A stretch of DNA of 64,000 bases, taken from the NCBI RefSeq assembly GCF_900100345.1, contig NZ_FMTT01000020.1, positions 1-64,000 on the forward strand, read 5' to 3'. Below are positions 4,941 through 47,384 of this stretch, in pieces (the stretch's first letter is position 1; each line of letters opens with the position of its first letter). The notes below the pieces were generated by a model. The model saw only the letters and a list, made by a program, of their open reading frames with translations. It did not search any database and was not told the DNA's origin. Made by a program: the position numbers and the translations under genes. The DNA is from Paenibacillus tianmuensis (GTDB taxonomy: Bacteria; Bacillota; Bacilli; Paenibacillales; NBRC-103111).

Positions 4941-5654
4941 TCAATACTCCCGGCCGTTCCCTTCCGCTTGATTCGGAACCGTAACGTCCGTTCCGAACGT
5001 CCGTTCCATCATTTCCGCGAATTGGGGGTGGTACGGTTCCAGACTTCTTCCGCTCCAGCTGTCCTGCGCCATCCGGTTGAACGCGTTGACGACGATGCGG
5101 TTCGCCGAAATATAGACGTCATGTACCGTCGGCTGATTCAGGCGAATTTTTTCTGCGATCTTCTGTTTGAACAAATGCGACAAATGCTCGTGGTGCATTT
5201 CCGTCTCCGCGCCGCTGCTGCCGCTGATCAACTGGTCGGGCGGGGCATAGTCGCTTTGATCTCCGTACGTGCTGTACAGCCCTTTGACCAATCCGTAGCT
5301 GTTGGTTTCCCTCCCGGCGACGTCGCCTCCCCGCGTCCCGCTGGCGGTACTGTCGATCGTGATGGCGACGTAGGCGGTATTATCGCCCATCATAACGATC
5401 GCGCTGCTGACTCCGTCCATAGCAGTCACCTGATCGGACAAATGCTGATTCATTTCCAGTTTGGTTACTTTGTGGGAAACGGGGGCATACTGCTGCTGAG
5501 TTTGATAAGCGCGCGACGTGTCCTGCCTCGGCATATCCCGCTTGCTGCCGTAATTGTTTGCGCTGTTGTAGTCGTACCATGAAAAGCAGCCGGTCATCGT
5601 CATGGCGAGGCTCAAGACGGCCGCCGGTCCGATCCATCGGAAATAACGCATCAT
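4941..5654 (-). CDS. YhcN/YlaJ-family sporulation lipoprotein
   Basis: 237 aa from ATG 5654 (AAAGGAGGGCAATT upstream). The N-terminus is a lipoprotein signal ending in MTMTGC (Cys23 acylated). A polar Gln/Ser/Tyr-rich linker follows, then the YhcN/YlaJ domain: LEMNQHLSDQVTAMDGVSSA, TAYVAITID, and a C-terminal half with KQKIAEKIR and VYISANRIVVNAF. Family members are spore-associated lipoproteins of the inner membrane made in the forespore and linked with germination or outgrowth. The gene stands alone, diverging from the oxidase operon. Confidence 0.85.
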   Translation of the reverse strand: MMRYFRWIGPAAVLSLAMTMTGCFSWYDYNSANNYGSKRDMPRQDTSRAYQTQQQYAPVSHKVTKLEMNQHLSDQVTAMDGVSSAIVMMGDNTAYVAITIDSTASGTRGGDVAGRETNSYGLVKGLYSTYGDQSDYAPPDQLISGSSGAETEMHHEHLSHLFKQKIAEKIRLNQPTVHDVYISANRIVVNAFNRMAQDSWSGRSLEPYHPQFAEMMERTFGTDVTVPNQAEGNGREY

Positions 5655-5815
5655 AATTGCCCTCCTTTGAAAATCTCCTTCTTAGGATTGATTATCGGGG
5701 ACGATTTATGCGCAGGAAAGCGAGGTCCAAATGATGCATAAAAAAACCGCTATATGGAAATAACCAAGTAGAGGCGAAAACGCTTAACCCCAGCAAATTC
5801 GAGAGTTCCGAACAA

Positions 5816-5824
5816 TTTGTGAAC
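5816..5824 (+). promoter_or_regulatory. Possible ResD-type site upstream of ctaC
   Basis: TTTGTGAAC lies just upstream of the -35 box of the ctaC promoter and resembles the TTTGTGAAT motif of the redox regulator ResD, which controls respiratory genes in Bacillus. A 9-bp match can occur by chance. Confidence 0.25.
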
Positions 5825-5837
5825 TTCTTCAGATTCA

Positions 5838-5866
5838 TTGACAAAAAACAGGTCCGAATTTATAGT
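5838..5866 (+). promoter_or_regulatory. Sigma-A promoter of the cta operon
   Basis: TTGACA (5838-5843), 17-bp spacer, TATAGT (5861-5866). It lies about 80 bases ahead of the ctaC start. The intergenic region 5655-5948 otherwise holds a second copy of TTCATTGACAA near 5882 and no gene. Confidence 0.75.
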
Positions 5867-5948
5867 TAATATGGTGATTAGGTTCATTGACAAGTTATGA
5901 CCTATTTTGATCGAAAAATATTTGCTTTATAAGGTGGGATTGATTAAG

Positions 5949-6956
5949 ATGATTCGATGGCAAAATCTGTGGCGATTCACCCCTCTTTTTGGGTTGATGA
6001 TGTTGCTGTTAACGGGGTGTGGAGACCAGACGATTTCCGCCTTAAAGCCAAGGGGTCCGGTGGCCAGAGATCAGCTCTTCCTGATGAAGCTAAGCTTCGG
6101 GATCATGCTTCTGGTTGTCGTGGTCGTTTTTGTCCTTTATTTGTATGTCTTGGTCCGCTTCAGAAAGAAAAAAGGCGATAAAGACATCATTCCGAAACAG
6201 GTGGAAGGCAGCCATACACTGGAGATTATTTGGACGGTTATTCCGATCATTTTGCTCCTCATTTTGGCCGTTCCTACCGTACAGTACACCTTTAAGCTTT
6301 TGGAAGACCACAGAGACAACAAAGAAGCGCTGCACGTTAAAGTGACGGCTCACGCCTTCTGGTGGCAATTCGAATATCCGGAGTTGGGGATCGCAACAGC
6401 TCAAGACTTAGTCATTCCAACAAACAAAAAGATCGCCTTTGAATTAACCGCTTCCGATGTGAAGCACTCCTTCTGGGTTCCGTCGCTTGGCGGTAAGATG
6501 GACACGAACCCGGGCATGACCAACGTGTACTACTTACAAGCAGACGAAGTGGACGTCTTCAAAGGGAAGTGCGCGGAGCTTTGCGGCGCCTCTCACTCCT
6601 TGATGGACTTTAAAGTGAAATCGATGGAACAAGCCGATTTCGATCAATGGGTCGCCAAAATGAAAACGCCTACGGCCATTCCGGCCGATGCGAAGAAAGG
6701 CGAGCAGATCTTCAAAGACAACTGTTTGTCCTGTCACGCGGTTAACACGCAGGGACTCGGTGCAGGTCCCAACTTGAACGGCTTTGCTTCCCGTGAGCTC
6801 GTTGCTGGTATTTTGCCGCACAACGAACAAAGTTTGAAGGAGTGGATCTCCGATCCTCAATCGGTGAAACCGGGCAATAAGATGCCTACTGTCGGATTGA
6901 AGGATGACGAAATCAGTGAAGTAATCAAATACTTGTATTCGTTGAAGTTAAAGTAA
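5949..6956 (+). CDS. ctaC: Cytochrome caa3 oxidase subunit II with fused cytochrome c
   Basis: 335 aa from ATG 5949 with AAGGTGGG upstream; an in-frame TTG at 5907 has no ribosome site. Lipoprotein signal MLLLTGC (Cys24), two membrane helices (about 45-68 and 88-112), then the CuA domain with CAELCGASHSLMDFKV and the upstream His of DVKHSFWVPS. The C-terminal cytochrome c domain carries CLSCH (heme c) and a Met in GNKMPTVG. The fused heme domain marks a caa3-type oxidase, in which electrons enter from cytochrome c and pass to CuA. First gene of ctaCDEF. Confidence 0.95.
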   Translation: MIRWQNLWRFTPLFGLMMLLLTGCGDQTISALKPRGPVARDQLFLMKLSFGIMLLVVVVVFVLYLYVLVRFRKKKGDKDIIPKQVEGSHTLEIIWTVIPIILLLILAVPTVQYTFKLLEDHRDNKEALHVKVTAHAFWWQFEYPELGIATAQDLVIPTNKKIAFELTASDVKHSFWVPSLGGKMDTNPGMTNVYYLQADEVDVFKGKCAELCGASHSLMDFKVKSMEQADFDQWVAKMKTPTAIPADAKKGEQIFKDNCLSCHAVNTQGLGAGPNLNGFASRELVAGILPHNEQSLKEWISDPQSVKPGNKMPTVGLKDDEISEVIKYLYSLKLK

Positions 6957-6986
6957 CGAGCATCGCGGAAAAAGGAGGTTTATACG

Positions 6987-41012: not shown

Positions 41013-42296
41013 TTACGCTTCAAGCGTGCCTTGTGCGGCCTGTGCGGCGAACGTCCCTGTTGTATAGCCTGTGGCAAAGGCTGCCGTGATGTTATAGCCT
41101 CCGGTATACCCGTGGATGTCGAGAATCTCGCCGCAAAAGAACAACCCCTCCACAAGCTTCGACCCCATCGTCCGCGGATCGAGCTCCTTCAAATTCACCC
41201 CGCCACCGGTGACAAAAGCCTCCTCGATCGACAGCGTCCCGTTCACCTGTACGGGAAACGCCTTGATCCGCTTGCTTAATTCCATCCATGGCTGTTTCGG
41301 AATATTATCGTATGTTGTTTGCTCGTCCAGTCCGGCTTGTCGGAGCAAAAGCGGGACGAGGCGTTCGGAGACGTACCCTTTCAGCACGTTTTTGACCGCT
41401 TTTTTCGGCTCGCTTTTAGCCATAGCCATCATCTCGTCATAGATCTCCTGCACGCTTTTGTCCGGGTATAAATCAATGGTGGTCAGCACCTGCTTCTCCG
41501 CCGTTTTTTGCCGCTCTTTCACGACGAATTGACTGCACCGGAGCGCGATCGGGCCGGATAAGCCGAAATGGGTAAACAGCATGTCCCCTTGATGGGAAAT
41601 GATTTTCTTCCCCTTGATGTTCCAAACCGTAAGCTCCACGTCCCGCAGTGACAAGCCCTGAAGCTCGCGGCTCTTGATAAAGGGCTCGCCGGAGGTCAGC
41701 GGAACTTCTGTTGGAAACAGCGGCGTGATCGTATGTCCCGCGTCCTCGGCCCAAGCGTAGCCGTCGCCGGTCGAGCCGGTATGCGGCACCGATTTGCCTC
41801 CGCTGGCGATGACGACGCACGCTCCGGCGATCGTCTCGCCCGTCCGGAGGCGAATGCCTGCAGTGCGTCTGTCTTGATAAAGCACCCGCTCCACCGCGCG
41901 GTTCACCCGAATGTCCACACCTTGCTTGCGGACTTGGCCAACAAGCGCGTCGACGACGGTCTTGGCTTTGTCCGTCACGGGAAACATCCGCCCGTTGTCT
42001 TCTTCCTTCAGCCGGATGCCGAGATTTTCAAAAAAAGTGATAATTTCACGATTGCCGAAATGGGCGAGCGCACTGTGCAAAAACCGTCCGTTGCCCGGAA
42101 TATGCTTAATAATCTCGTCGATTTCCTTCGCGTTCGTAACGTTGCACCGGCCTCCGCCGGAAATGCCGAGCTTGCGCCCGAGCTTGTCTCCTTTATCGAC
42201 CAGCACGACGCGGGCGCCCTGCCTGCTGGCTGCAATACAGGCCATCAAGCCAGAAGGCCCGCCGCCGATGACGATGACATCGTACTTCATATCCAT
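41013..42296 (-). CDS. BaiN/HI0933-family FAD flavoprotein
   Basis: 427 aa, ATG 42296. FAD site [40 protein letters not shown], later [14 protein letters not shown], and the C-terminal [16 protein letters not shown] with [19 protein letters not shown], all characteristic of the HI0933/YhiN/BaiN group. Members are probable NAD(P)H-linked reductases; the substrate is open. It has its own promoter and lies just outside the left repeat of the recombinase segment. Confidence 0.9.
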
Positions 42297-42363: not shown

Positions 42364-42490
42364 AATGGCTGCGGAAGATGGCTACCACATGAAAGAAGAA
42401 AGCGGGCCGCTTGCTGCTGCGGCCGTTCGCGGGCAACGACGGACGGTGGGAAATGGGGTGCTTTTTCATAGACATTACGTTACAATGGGA

Positions 42491-42513
42491 TTCGTACAAT
42501 TTGTGTTGTTCGA
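42491..42513 (+). repeat. Left inverted repeat / candidate recombination site
   Basis: Exactly the reverse complement of 43587-43609. Internally it is a dyad: TCGTACAA, a 6-bp spacer TTTGTG, and TTGTTCGA, with 7 of 8 arm positions symmetric. A weaker match continues outward, so 30 of 33 positions agree and TACAAT (42481-42486) is shared. Confidence 0.9.
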
Positions 42514-42561
42514 CATTTTTTTATGTAATTCATACTATTTCTACAAATATTTCTTTTTTGT

Positions 42562-42590
42562 ATTATAGTCAATATTAACCAATGAAACAA
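42562..42590 (-). promoter_or_regulatory. Promoter-like element inside the invertible segment, facing left
   Basis: On the minus strand TTGTTT (42585-42590), 17-bp spacer, perfect TATAAT (42562-42567). It points out of the segment across the left repeat towards the BaiN-like gene; after inversion it would point right towards the HD-GYP gene. The -35 box keeps only the TTG. Confidence 0.45.
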
Positions 42591-42621
42591 GAGAATAATG
42601 GAAAAACATAGGATGAAATGC

Positions 42622-43569
42622 CTATAAACTATCTTTGAAGCAGTCTTCGACATAGTCGGGGGCCGCTTTTTTAATTTGCTGGACTGTATGGAGATAGCGC
42701 TGCGTGGTGTTGATGTGCGTATGTCCGAGCGATTCCTGAACCTGCTGTAAGGAAGCGCCGCGCAGGAGGGCGAGAGTCGCGTTCGTATGGCGGAGCCAGT
42801 GAGGAGTCGCCTTTTTCTCCAAGCCGCATTGCTCGCGGGCTTTCTTGATAATTTTCTCGACAAGGCGGACGGATAAAGGGAACAGCTTGTCCTCCGGCCC
42901 GGGCGGCCCCGGCCTTGTTGCTTCATAAGCTTGAAGCAGCGTCCACAGCATATGCGGCACCTTGACTTCGCGTTCTTTATCGCCTTTGCCGCGAATCGTG
43001 AGCCACATAGAAGCGCCTTCGGGGTCGGTGTGAAAATGGTTCCATTGAATCGAAACCAGCTCCGATACCCGGATGCCGAGCAATACCAACGTGACTCCGA
43101 TGACGTAATCGCGCAGCCCTTGCTGCTTTAACTGCCCGAACAAACGAAGCACTTCGGCCTTCGTCAAATAATGATTTTTACTGTTCACTTGGATTTTGGG
43201 AATGCGGATGCAAGAGGTCGGGTTATGCTTAAACATGCCGATGTTCGGGTCGCTGCCCCACTTGTAAAGCGAGCGCAGAGGCGCGATATGTATGGCTACC
43301 GTCGCAGGAGCTTGAGGCTTGTTTGCGCGGCTTAACAGCCCCTCCAACAGGCCGATTTTATAGACCTCGATTTCCCGCCAGGTTACGTCCTGTAACGATT
43401 TATCGCCGATAAAGCGGCGGAATTTGGCGATCGCGTTGCGGTAATTTCTCATCGTATACGGGGATCGGGAGCAAGTCGTCAGAAACATGTTGACGATTTG
43501 TTCATCCGTGTATTTTTCGGTTGGTTTCCATTGTTCGGGAAGATGGATTTGAGCGAGTAGGGTTTGCAT
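42622..43569 (-). CDS. Tyrosine recombinase (phage integrase/XerD type)
   Basis: 315 aa from ATG 43569, with AAAGGAGACC upstream. N-terminal SAM-like DNA-binding domain (about 20-105: CSRSPYTMRNYRNAIAKFRR), catalytic domain (125-300) with Arg in LLGIRVSELVSIQW, Lys in IRGKGDKEREVKVP, HWLRHTNATLAL, GHTHINTTQRYLHT. All catalytic residues (R, K, H-x-x-R, H, Y) are present, so it should be active. An extended -10 box (TGATACAAT) overlaps the outer edge of the right repeat and can drive it. Neighbours are ordinary chromosomal genes, with no phage or excisionase gene. Confidence 0.92.
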   Translation of the reverse strand: MQTLLAQIHLPEQWKPTEKYTDEQIVNMFLTTCSRSPYTMRNYRNAIAKFRRFIGDKSLQDVTWREIEVYKIGLLEGLLSRANKPQAPATVAIHIAPLRSLYKWGSDPNIGMFKHNPTSCIRIPKIQVNSKNHYLTKAEVLRLFGQLKQQGLRDYVIGVTLVLLGIRVSELVSIQWNHFHTDPEGASMWLTIRGKGDKEREVKVPHMLWTLLQAYEATRPGPPGPEDKLFPLSVRLVEKIIKKAREQCGLEKKATPHWLRHTNATLALLRGASLQQVQESLGHTHINTTQRYLHTVQQIKKAAPDYVEDCFKDSL

Positions 43570-43586
43570 AAGGTCTCCTTTCTTTT

Positions 43587-43609
43587 TCGAACAACACAAA
43601 TTGTACGAA
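43587..43609 (-). repeat. Right inverted repeat / candidate recombination site
   Basis: Exact inverted copy of 42491-42513, lying between the recombinase ribosome site and its probable -10 box (TACAAT on the minus strand, 43614-43619). Confidence 0.9.
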
Positions 43610-43695
43610 CTCTATTGTATCACGCCTGACTACGGAAAGGAGGGGCTTGAAGGATTTCGGCAGGGCGCGACACATGGGCTGAGGAGGGGTAACGC

Positions 43696-44310
43696 GTGCG
43701 GGATCGTTTAGTCACTCAAGAGTTGGTTCGGTTAATGGAAAAGGACGTCGATACCTATGAGCATAGTCTGCGGGTAGGGAAGCTCGCGAAGAGCATGGCG
43801 CTGATGATGCGCCTGAATCTTGCGCAGACCCGGCAATTGGTGATCGGATGCTGCTTGCATGACATCGGGAAAATCTACATGCCCGACTCGATTTTAAAAA
43901 AAGACACGTCGCTTACGGAAAGAGAATGGAGGATGATGAAGCAGCATCCGGTGCTGGGTGCGGATATATTGAAAATTCATGCGCCGGAAGAGCGGGCGAT
44001 CATCGACATCGTCGAATTTCACCATGAGCGATGGAACGGAACAGGCTATCCGTACGGCTTAGATGGGGTGGACATTCCGGCGTTCGCCCGGATCTGTACC
44101 ATCATCGATTCCTTCGACAGCATGCTATCCGACCGGCCCTACCAATCAGGGATGTCGCTGGAGGAAGCAAAGGAAGAACTGCGCCGGCACAGCGGCACGC
44201 AGTTCGATAAGCAGTACGTGGAATTGTTTCTGCAAATGCCGGGCGAGATGCTTCATCGTACTTACGCAAGACGCGAAAGCGTCAATCTTACCGTCCAGTC
44301 TTCAACATAA
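43696..44310 (+). CDS. HD-GYP-type phosphohydrolase (putative c-di-GMP phosphodiesterase)
   Basis: 204 aa from GTG 43696 after GAGGAGGGG. HD domain with YEHSLRVGKLA, CCLHDIGKIYMPDSIL, MKQHPVLGADIL and the HD-GYP stretch HHERWNGTGYP. It is a compact protein with no receiver or sensor part. HD-GYP proteins break down cyclic di-GMP. Notably no good promoter lies between the right repeat of the recombinase segment (43609) and this gene. Confidence 0.85.
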   Translation: MRDRLVTQELVRLMEKDVDTYEHSLRVGKLAKSMALMMRLNLAQTRQLVIGCCLHDIGKIYMPDSILKKDTSLTEREWRMMKQHPVLGADILKIHAPEERAIIDIVEFHHERWNGTGYPYGLDGVDIPAFARICTIIDSFDSMLSDRPYQSGMSLEEAKEELRRHSGTQFDKQYVELFLQMPGEMLHRTYARRESVNLTVQSST

Positions 44311-45998: not shown

Positions 45999-46316
45999 AT
46001 ATTCGCAAGAATATACGTAAATCCTCATACAACCCCTACACGGAAGATTTTCCTCGAGAAAGCAGCGTTATTTCCGCACATGTTTAATCGATCATTCAAG
46101 GAACTCCCATGATTAGGAATTGTTGTAACACTGATTCACACTGGCGCGGTCTTCGGAGCCGCAAGGATGGAAGAGAGGCAGGGCTTTCATTGTTTTGGTA
46201 TGCGCAGCATCATGTACAGAAATTGGTTTTGCTTTGGGGTAAAGAAGGGTAACCGGTGTTTTTAAACGGCCAAAAAGGCTCGGTCAGGGACAGATCCGCT
46301 GACGGAGCCTTTTTTG
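45999..46316 (+). ncRNA. Candidate orphan structured RNA, about 315 nt
   Basis: Between a promoter and a strong terminator lies about 315 bp with no good open frame. It begins with a perfect hairpin closed by a GNRA loop (ATATTC-GCAA-GAATAT, 45999-46014) and holds a hairpin with a UUCG loop (GCGG-TC-TTCG-GA-g-CCGC, 46146-46162). It does not match any riboswitch or 6S RNA pattern known to me. The region 45692-45960 upstream has no gene. It could also be a leader of the kdp region, but the terminator speaks against this. Confidence 0.35.
46276..46315 (+). terminator. Strong terminator
   Basis: AGGCTC-G-GTCAG pairs with CTGAC-G-GAGCCT (46276-46310), followed by TTTTTT, with no gene upstream on the plus strand. 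Confidence 0.85.
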
Positions 46317-46785: not shown

Positions 46786-46805
46786 TTTACAGTTTCCAAA
46801 TTCTT

Positions 46806-46988
46806 ATCGCTTAATTTCCGCCATCGTGCGGAAAGCGGGGGAACCACAAGGGAAGCCTGCGCTGCCGGTGTGAGAGCCGAAAGCCATGCGTCCCCGGGGT
46901 GAATCCTCATCGTGCATGTGAAACATGCACTGAGGTAGGGCGACTCTCACCGCCCGAATCCGTCAGCTAACCTCGTCAGCGTTGGATC
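46806..46988 (+). promoter_or_regulatory. c-di-AMP riboswitch (ydaO/yuaA class), copy 1
   Basis: Carries the conserved pieces of the class in order: GCGGGGGAACCA, CGGGGTGAATC, a variable hairpin (GTGCATGTGAAACATGCAC), GTAGGGCGACTCTCACC, GCCCGAATCCGTCAGCTAAC and CTCGTCAGCG. The terminator that follows at 47065 means that binding of c-di-AMP should stop transcription, as for K+ uptake genes elsewhere. Confidence 0.9.
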
Positions 46989-47064
46989 GAACAGCCGTTT
47001 AGAGGCCGGCCGCGGCCTTTGTTCGAATGGAGAGAGGATGATGAAGCTTGTGATCGTATAGCGA

Positions 47065-47093: not shown

Positions 47094-47165
47094 ATTGTCT
47101 TTTTTGGAAAAACGGAACGCCAGTTCTATTCGAGAAAATATAAAAATGCAGCCATTCCATGCAGT

Positions 47166-47333
47166 ATATCGCTGAATTCCCGGCTCGCCGGGAAGCGGGG
47201 GAACCAACGGGACAGGACGGCGCGTTAGACGCGCGGATCGGTCCCAGGGGTGAATCTCTTCGCGCTTGCTTTGCAAGCGCTGGGGTAGGGCGACTCTCAC
47301 GCCCGAATCCGTCAGCTAACCTCGTAAGCGTAC
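47166..47333 (+). promoter_or_regulatory. c-di-AMP riboswitch (ydaO/yuaA class), copy 2
   Basis: Same conserved series as copy 1: GCGGGGGAACCAAC, AGGGGTGAATC, a different variable hairpin (GCGCTTGCTTTGCAAGCGC), GTAGGGCGACTCTCAC, GCCCGAATCCGTCAGCTAAC and CTCGTAAGCG. The arms that pair at the outside differ from copy 1 while the core is kept, as expected for two working aptamers. Confidence 0.9.
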
Positions 47334-47384
47334 AGAGAGAGGCAACGATTGTCGTGAGCTCATAAGACACGGTTTGTTTCACCG

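Follow-up and report, generated by a model that had tools for sequence, protein, structure and literature searches.

The stretch of DNA analysed here in full (64,000 nucleotides, hereafter the window) contains a segment of about 1.1 kb bounded by two 23-bp repeats, at 42491-42513 and 43587-43609, which are exact reverse complements of each other. A single gene, encoding a tyrosine recombinase, lies between them. Both the exact repeats about 1.1 kb apart and the single intact recombinase had been pointed out in an earlier sequence-only reading, and both were confirmed. The features of the locus are as follows.

41013-42296, minus strand: HI0933-like flavoprotein gene, 195 nt from the left core; the candidate promoter points at it at present
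42481-42486, plus strand: TACAAT (weak), just beyond the left core; flipping the segment would give it the corresponding position relative to the recombinase
42492-42513, plus strand: left recombination core, TCGTACAA-TTTGTG-TTGTTCGA, within the 33-nt arm 42481-42513
42562-42590, minus strand: candidate outward promoter, TTGTTT (42590-42585), 17 nt, TATAAT (42567-42562), directed outward across the left core
42622-43569, minus strand: tyrosine recombinase gene, 315 aa, ATG start, inside the putative invertible segment and the sole gene between the arms
43587-43608, minus strand: right recombination core, inverted, with a spacer identical to the left one, within the 33-nt arm 43587-43619
43614-43619, minus strand: TACAAT, a possible -10 element of the recombinase (weak), just beyond the right core
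43696-44310, plus strand: HD-GYP-type HD-domain gene, 204 aa, GTG start, 87 nt from the right core; the proposed target

The two 33-nt arms are 91% complementary, with 1073 nt between them. Each core consists of two near-palindromic 8-bp half-sites around an asymmetric 6-bp spacer, which, judged by its sequence, is the form of a tyrosine-recombinase core. When up to three mismatches were allowed, the 23-mer was found twice in the window and in none of 100 dinucleotide shuffles, while the 22-bp core occurred twice in the whole 6.03-Mb genome; no further core site in trans was found in that genome at the same tolerance. A far looser site pattern matched at least two other places in the genome, with different spacers.

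The inverted-repeat score at the window's cassette was 24, compared with 7-15 at 54 random placements and best values of 8-13 around 24 other tyrosine-recombinase matches; for the latter, the search windows were somewhat wider and were anchored on the ends of the match, and several partial matches end inside the gene. A chance origin of the repeat was rejected on the basis of the shuffles and of these control recombinases, around which nothing comparable was seen. The possibility of a family-wide recombinase promoter lying outside the cores was likewise discarded, as, with the two best offsets (-12 and -11) combined, a -10-like hexamer was present in just 13 of the 78 upstream flanks and 8 of the 78 downstream ones.

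The recombinase matched the Pfam Phage_integrase family (PF00589, 6.7e-24) together with an N-terminal SAM-like domain, and all recombinase domains matched were of the tyrosine type, none of the serine type. Residues R167, K195, H257, R260, H283 and Y292, which we take to be the catalytic set (R-K-H-R-H-Y) of tyrosine recombinases, were invariant in an 11-row family alignment. The protein was closest to Xer-type models, yet it remained under every curated cut-off in the list, scoring 148 bits against a cut-off of 220 for XerA, 140 against 335 for XerC and 121 against 330 for XerD (NCBIfam). Two NCBIfam models of a "tyrosine-type DNA invertase", presumably of the Fim type, matched weakly (34 and 24 bits against cut-offs of 222 and 221, respectively). 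XerA (5hxy) was the only solved relative with an E value of 1e-20 or better.

No tRNA was found within the window, and no Rfam match at the gathering threshold was obtained inside the segment in the window or in five relatives. A riboswitch acting within the segment was therefore dismissed. A prophage or transposon reading was also set aside, there being no tRNA in the window and the two short direct repeats around the cassette being weak two-copy matches. Elsewhere in the window, tandem matches to the c-di-AMP (ydaO/yuaA) riboswitch were recorded on the plus strand at 46798-46996 and 47160-47346 (85.0 and 87.2 bits; gathering score 38), as well as a match to the BsrC small-RNA family on the minus strand at 46116-46202 (81.2 bits).

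A family profile was built from 11 relatives of the window's recombinase. Homologues were found by profile search in 27 of 104 genomes of the taxonomic family, in 81 of 392 genomes drawn from the order and in 24 of 398 drawn from the class; among 398 phylum genomes, the window's own was the sole match. In the order, class and phylum searches the best five candidates per genome were scored, so some members may have been missed there. Up to three cassette copies were present per genome, at different places.

In total, 109 distinct loci were examined, namely 105 fetched regions, the window and loci L039, L044 and L050. Loci L038 and L040-L043, whose genomes are those of L139-L143, and the second match in each of L204 and L218 were dropped before counting. 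One partial match (genome G194) and two degraded ones (G440) fall outside the locus set. Searches of open-access literature brought up no earlier description naming this recombinase family.

An inverted-repeat search returned a flanking inverted pair at 103 of the 109 loci, and the 6-bp spacers were identical within the pair in 102 of the 103. A wider search added three flanking pairs with identical spacers (L137, L206 and L218), which brings the total to 105 of 109. As the inverted-repeat search selects pairs by their mutual similarity, sites were also called separately on each side, which removes that bias; the spacers were then the same at 98 of the 109 loci and different at none, the sites at the remaining 11 being too weak. 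Across the 103 pairs there were 39 kinds of spacer, none of them palindromic, and in 34 pairs the half-sites were unlike each other. In the partly masked loci L152 and L203 no inverted pair was found, and L183 had one good site and a poor second one.

Strand exchange by tyrosine recombinases needs spacers that match within a pair and leaves them free to drift between loci. Because the spacers match within pairs and differ between loci, inversion by strand exchange is supported. The repeats might instead be mere binding sites that regulate the recombinase gene and the divergent gene without any recombination. In the window the right core does reach into the sequence immediately preceding the recombinase start, and each arm has a TACAAT hexamer beside it, as would suit such a role. 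Binding, however, could do without the two asymmetric spacers of a pair being identical, and it leaves unexplained the swapped flanks and the double junctions within single assemblies that are described below. Binding without recombination is thus regarded as extremely unlikely.

Ten genomes yielded two or three fetched cassettes (G040, G074, G093, G098, G100, G345, G358, G367, G371 and G376), and in each of them every copy had a different spacer. To judge from these sequences, it is as if the copies were kept from recombining with one another.

Some loci departed from the usual layout. At L148 (genome G233) the matched sites, at 5509-5747, lie wholly upstream of the recombinase frame (5806-6969) and enclose 195 bp, so that the recombinase is outside its own switch, possibly a derived or transitional layout. 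The inverted repeat at L162 extends over 73 nt and includes the recombinase start, while the downstream segments at L169, L212 and L214 are unusually long.

The orientation of the cassette was compared among relatives by means of the three nearest called genes on each side, the gene calls being longest-ORF guesses. On this basis, both flanks were the same in 131 pairs of loci and both were swapped in 14. Ten of the 14 swapped pairs involve a single locus, L181, which leaves about four independent cases.

Five of the 14 swapped pairs were aligned as DNA. In L181/L190 and L127/L131 the flanks run in reverse order while the cassette runs forward, and on each side this change coincides with the core. 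In L209/L211, L129/L131 and L188/L181 the aligned flanks stop no more than about 200 nt from a core. The change was also located at the cores in L127/L128, where the L128 contig stops shortly afterwards and cuts one flank short. In addition, the HD-GYP flank lies on the opposite side in L179 compared with L182 and L184, and in L117 compared with L124; in these three pairs the other flank was too divergent or rearranged for a full judgement.

On a recombinase tree, the orientation of the cassette relative to its target changes at least 9 times when HD-GYP loci are considered and at least 13 times when all targets are. Both values are rough, since the tree is a quick one with 42 of its 104 inner branches below 80, and changes of side can also arise through rearrangement.

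Both junctions of one cassette were found in one assembly in three cases. In genome G346, contigs C2 and C20 both contain the 5' end of the recombinase, each connecting it to a different flank. The latter contig aligns over 1,356 positions, at 93%, with what follows the cassette downstream in the related locus L193, and its last stretch before the core is 81% identical over 84 positions to the downstream core region of L193. In G093, contigs C202 and C208 carry the same HD-GYP flank, which adjoins the cassette's 3' end in the former and its 5' end in the latter, with junction overlaps of 127 and 134 nt at 99%. In G375, the end of a contig is a 92-nt mirror image of the opposite flank plus the core.

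One irregularity was noted in G093: next to the same HD-GYP flank, the half-site reads TCGTAC in L128 (C202) and TCGCAC in L224 (C208). Exchange within the spacer should leave the outer half-site unchanged, so the difference reflects either an assembly artefact or a wider exchange.

In the window's own clade, all eight assembled copies, the window included, share one orientation. Two close relatives are not among the assembled copies. Genomes G004 and G005 carry HD-GYP genes 89% and 93% identical to that of the window; the flank matches are at 92-93% identity, and neither genome gave a match to the cassette interior. Each of the four contigs carrying their flanks stops at the outer edge of the shared core, to within about 2 bp. 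Since a graph assembler would break at a short segment present in both orientations, these breaks may point to a mixed population; this reading is drawn from the behaviour of graph assemblers. In two draft loci, L155 and L183, a contig also ends near the cassette, and no second junction was seen there.

These data bear on whether the window's cassette could be a frozen relic, invertible in its ancestors and now locked throughout the clade. The single orientation of all eight assembled clade members would fit such a relic, as would a more distant family member, in genome G007, whose recombinase has acquired an in-frame stop. Against this, the window's gene is intact with its catalytic residues kept, both cores are exact, and the contigs of G004 and G005 break at both repeats as they would in a mixed population. 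A locked cassette is therefore considered very unlikely.

The same comparison concerns a tyrosine-recombinase transposon with terminal inverted repeats that arrived at the locus by transposition. A compact one-gene unit with inverted ends, found at up to three separate places in a genome, is what such an insertion element might look like. Its ends, however, would not be expected to be built as half-site, spacer and half-site with spacers matched within each locus, nor would it invert in place between the same flanks. Empty sites were sought through the HD-GYP neighbour in 25 genomes of the genus, and neither a clean empty site nor a target duplication was found among them. In two genomes with a close HD-GYP gene the recombinase was apparently absent; these are again G004 and G005, where the contigs are broken at the repeats. 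An insertion element is accordingly held to be scarcely credible.

The sequence-only reading had proposed that the recombinase flips its own segment, and had named related genomes as one place to look for flipped or empty sites. Its proposal of self-inversion is supported through the relatives, by flipped cassettes, double junctions and matched spacers, with the window's copy seen in one orientation only.

The segment had also been described as holding one gene and no cargo. The single gene stands, but the description is incomplete, as an outward promoter motif is present as well. It lies behind the 3' end of the recombinase gene, where the distance from the stop codon to the far core is 53-318 nt in 102 segments, mostly 84-138 nt. 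In 78 non-redundant segments, the strict motif TTGNNN-N16-18-TAYAHT was found 39 times in the outward direction and once inward, compared with 2.7 expected from shuffles. The mean best promoter score was 9.8 outward, 8.4 inward and 8.2 in shuffles, and the outward score exceeded the inward one in 59 segments, fell below it in 9 and equalled it in 10. In the other 39 of the 78 segments the strict outward motif is missing.

The window's own candidate promoter has a weak -35 element, TTGTTT, with 3 of 6 consensus matches. A general promoter scan did not list it, the -35 being too weak; instead, two inward promoter-like sites were listed in the same AT-rich stretch, with 3 found in the region against 2.0 expected.

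The neighbours of the cassette had been taken for ordinary chromosomal genes, a description that did not hold across the family. The flanking genes were grouped by Blast clusters, with Pfam annotation on representatives. At 94 of the 109 loci, the first gene pointing outward belongs to the HD-GYP, CheW, CheA, MCP or EAL class. This signalling-class neighbour stands on the recombinase 5' side at 76 loci and on the 3' (promoter) side at 18, and in no case on both sides. The 15 loci without a listed target may hide one, given the longest-ORF gene calls; in L125 and L044, for instance, an HD-GYP gene comes second.

When the members were scanned singly, 48 of the 98 outward genes on the 5' side had an HD domain, 18 had CheW and 7 EAL, while among the 53 outward genes on the 3' side an HD domain was found in 14 and EAL in 2. 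The other outward genes were mixed. Recurrent among them were TatD (9 of 98) and the HI0933-like flavoprotein (8 of 53), and their recurrence is put down to repeated sampling of close relatives. In the window, the HI0933-like flavoprotein gene is probably a bystander.

Because genes of a c-di-GMP or chemotaxis class come first in the outward direction at 94 of the 109 loci, the module appears to have a target. A cassette without one, in which the gene flips itself alone and its neighbours are incidental, corresponds to the sequence-only reading taken literally and would agree with the ordinary look of the window's neighbours and with the weak consensus match of its outward promoter. It does not account for five signalling classes recurring as the first outward gene, each time on one side only, nor for an outward motif far above both the shuffles and the inward count. 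A target-less cassette is consequently judged unlikely.

In the window, the HD-GYP gene is on the 5' side of the recombinase, that is, away from the candidate promoter at present. The bias of 76 to 18 towards this side, which would be the OFF side, may be due to selection in culture or to unequal switching. A separate observation was made at L137/L019 (genome G007), where the recombinase carries an in-frame stop, both sites are kept and the HD-GYP gene is on the promoter side; this switch is possibly locked ON.

Taken together, the window's cassette is very probably a self-contained DNA-inversion phase switch for c-di-GMP or chemotaxis genes. The proposal is built on comparison, namely on sites with matched spacers, inversions in relatives, three double-junction assemblies and the recurrence of the promoter motif and of the target class. 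For the window's strain itself, we infer from these sequences the inversion, the activity of the promoter, the assignment of ON and OFF, and the effect on c-di-GMP and phenotype.

According to the proposed mechanism, the recombinase would bind and pair the two inverted cores and exchange strands within the 6-bp spacer, thereby inverting the 1.1-kb segment that carries its own gene. The sigma-A-like promoter predicted behind the recombinase 3' end would aim out of the segment. In one orientation it would read through the core into the HD-GYP gene (ON), while in the orientation seen in the window it would aim at the flavoprotein gene, leaving the HD-GYP gene OFF. Cells would thus vary in HD-GYP output and, probably, in c-di-GMP level, motility or biofilm behaviour. 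HD-GYP and EAL proteins are expected to hydrolyse c-di-GMP, and switching should therefore move cells between sessile and motile behaviour.

A broader interpretation would make the cassette an autonomous, portable 1.1-kb unit of recombinase, private sites and outward promoter that has repeatedly settled beside c-di-GMP and chemotaxis operons across Bacilli. It would put any neighbour under reversible control, with each copy having its own spacer and hence not cross-reacting within a genome, and it would represent a widespread, unnamed class of one-gene phase-variation cassettes. The arguments for and against this broader interpretation are, in our estimate, evenly balanced.

The known examples of phase variation by DNA inversion come mainly from gut and pathogenic bacteria. 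In the present case, a single enzyme family would make up a compact unit together with its sites and a promoter motif, and the prevalence of the cassette together with its target class predicts a built-in, reversible heterogeneity of motile and sessile states in the Bacilli that carry it. With their private paired spacers, the cassettes also suggest a natural collection of recombination sites that are insulated from one another. The cassette may, speculatively, bear on the colony-type switching of Paenibacillus polymyxa, the direct mechanism of which was, according to an excerpt of one source, still to be elucidated as of 2013 (PMC3694910).

With regard to known systems, the window's recombinase resembles XerA, XerC and XerD in its model matches, in having XerA 5hxy as its solved relative, and in the half-sites placed around a 6-bp spacer. 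Xer sites have two half-sites around a 6-bp spacer, and dif is a single chromosomal site. The window's recombinase differs in that its scores remain under the Xer cut-offs, and its sites form a local inverted pair and not a single dif.

FimB and FimE, likewise tyrosine recombinases, act at inverted repeats to invert a segment next to their target, and their genes adjoin the switch. The likeness to the window's cassette lies in the type of enzyme and in inversion at inverted repeats by a target, and it extends to PsrA, a tyrosine recombinase that, in the portion of its description consulted, also inverts a segment at inverted repeats beside the target (PMC4948785). The window's cassette differs from the Fim switch in having its recombinase gene inside the segment, and the presumed Fim-type models match its recombinase weakly.

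With the Hin/hix system, the flagellar switch of Salmonella, the window's cassette shares the recombinase gene inside the inverted segment and a promoter, here a candidate one, for an outside gene. The Hin segment carries such a promoter. As far as excerpts of the two sources go, Hin is an example of a recombinase encoded within its own invertible segment (PMC5903667) and is a serine recombinase regulated by a Fis-bound enhancer (PMC3798978). The window's cassette differs from it in having a tyrosine recombinase and a proposed c-di-GMP or chemotaxis target. In Clostridioides difficile, an invertible element with a promoter, Cdi2, controls pdcB, a c-di-GMP phosphodiesterase gene; the excerpted account gives it a length of 174 bp, imperfect 19-bp repeats and a position 840 bp upstream of pdcB (PMC9286219). 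The logic and the target function are similar, with EAL in pdcB and HD-GYP in the window, but Cdi2 is too short to hold a recombinase gene. The window's cassette belongs to neither the Hin nor the pdcB kind, its tyrosine recombinase being encoded inside its own segment.
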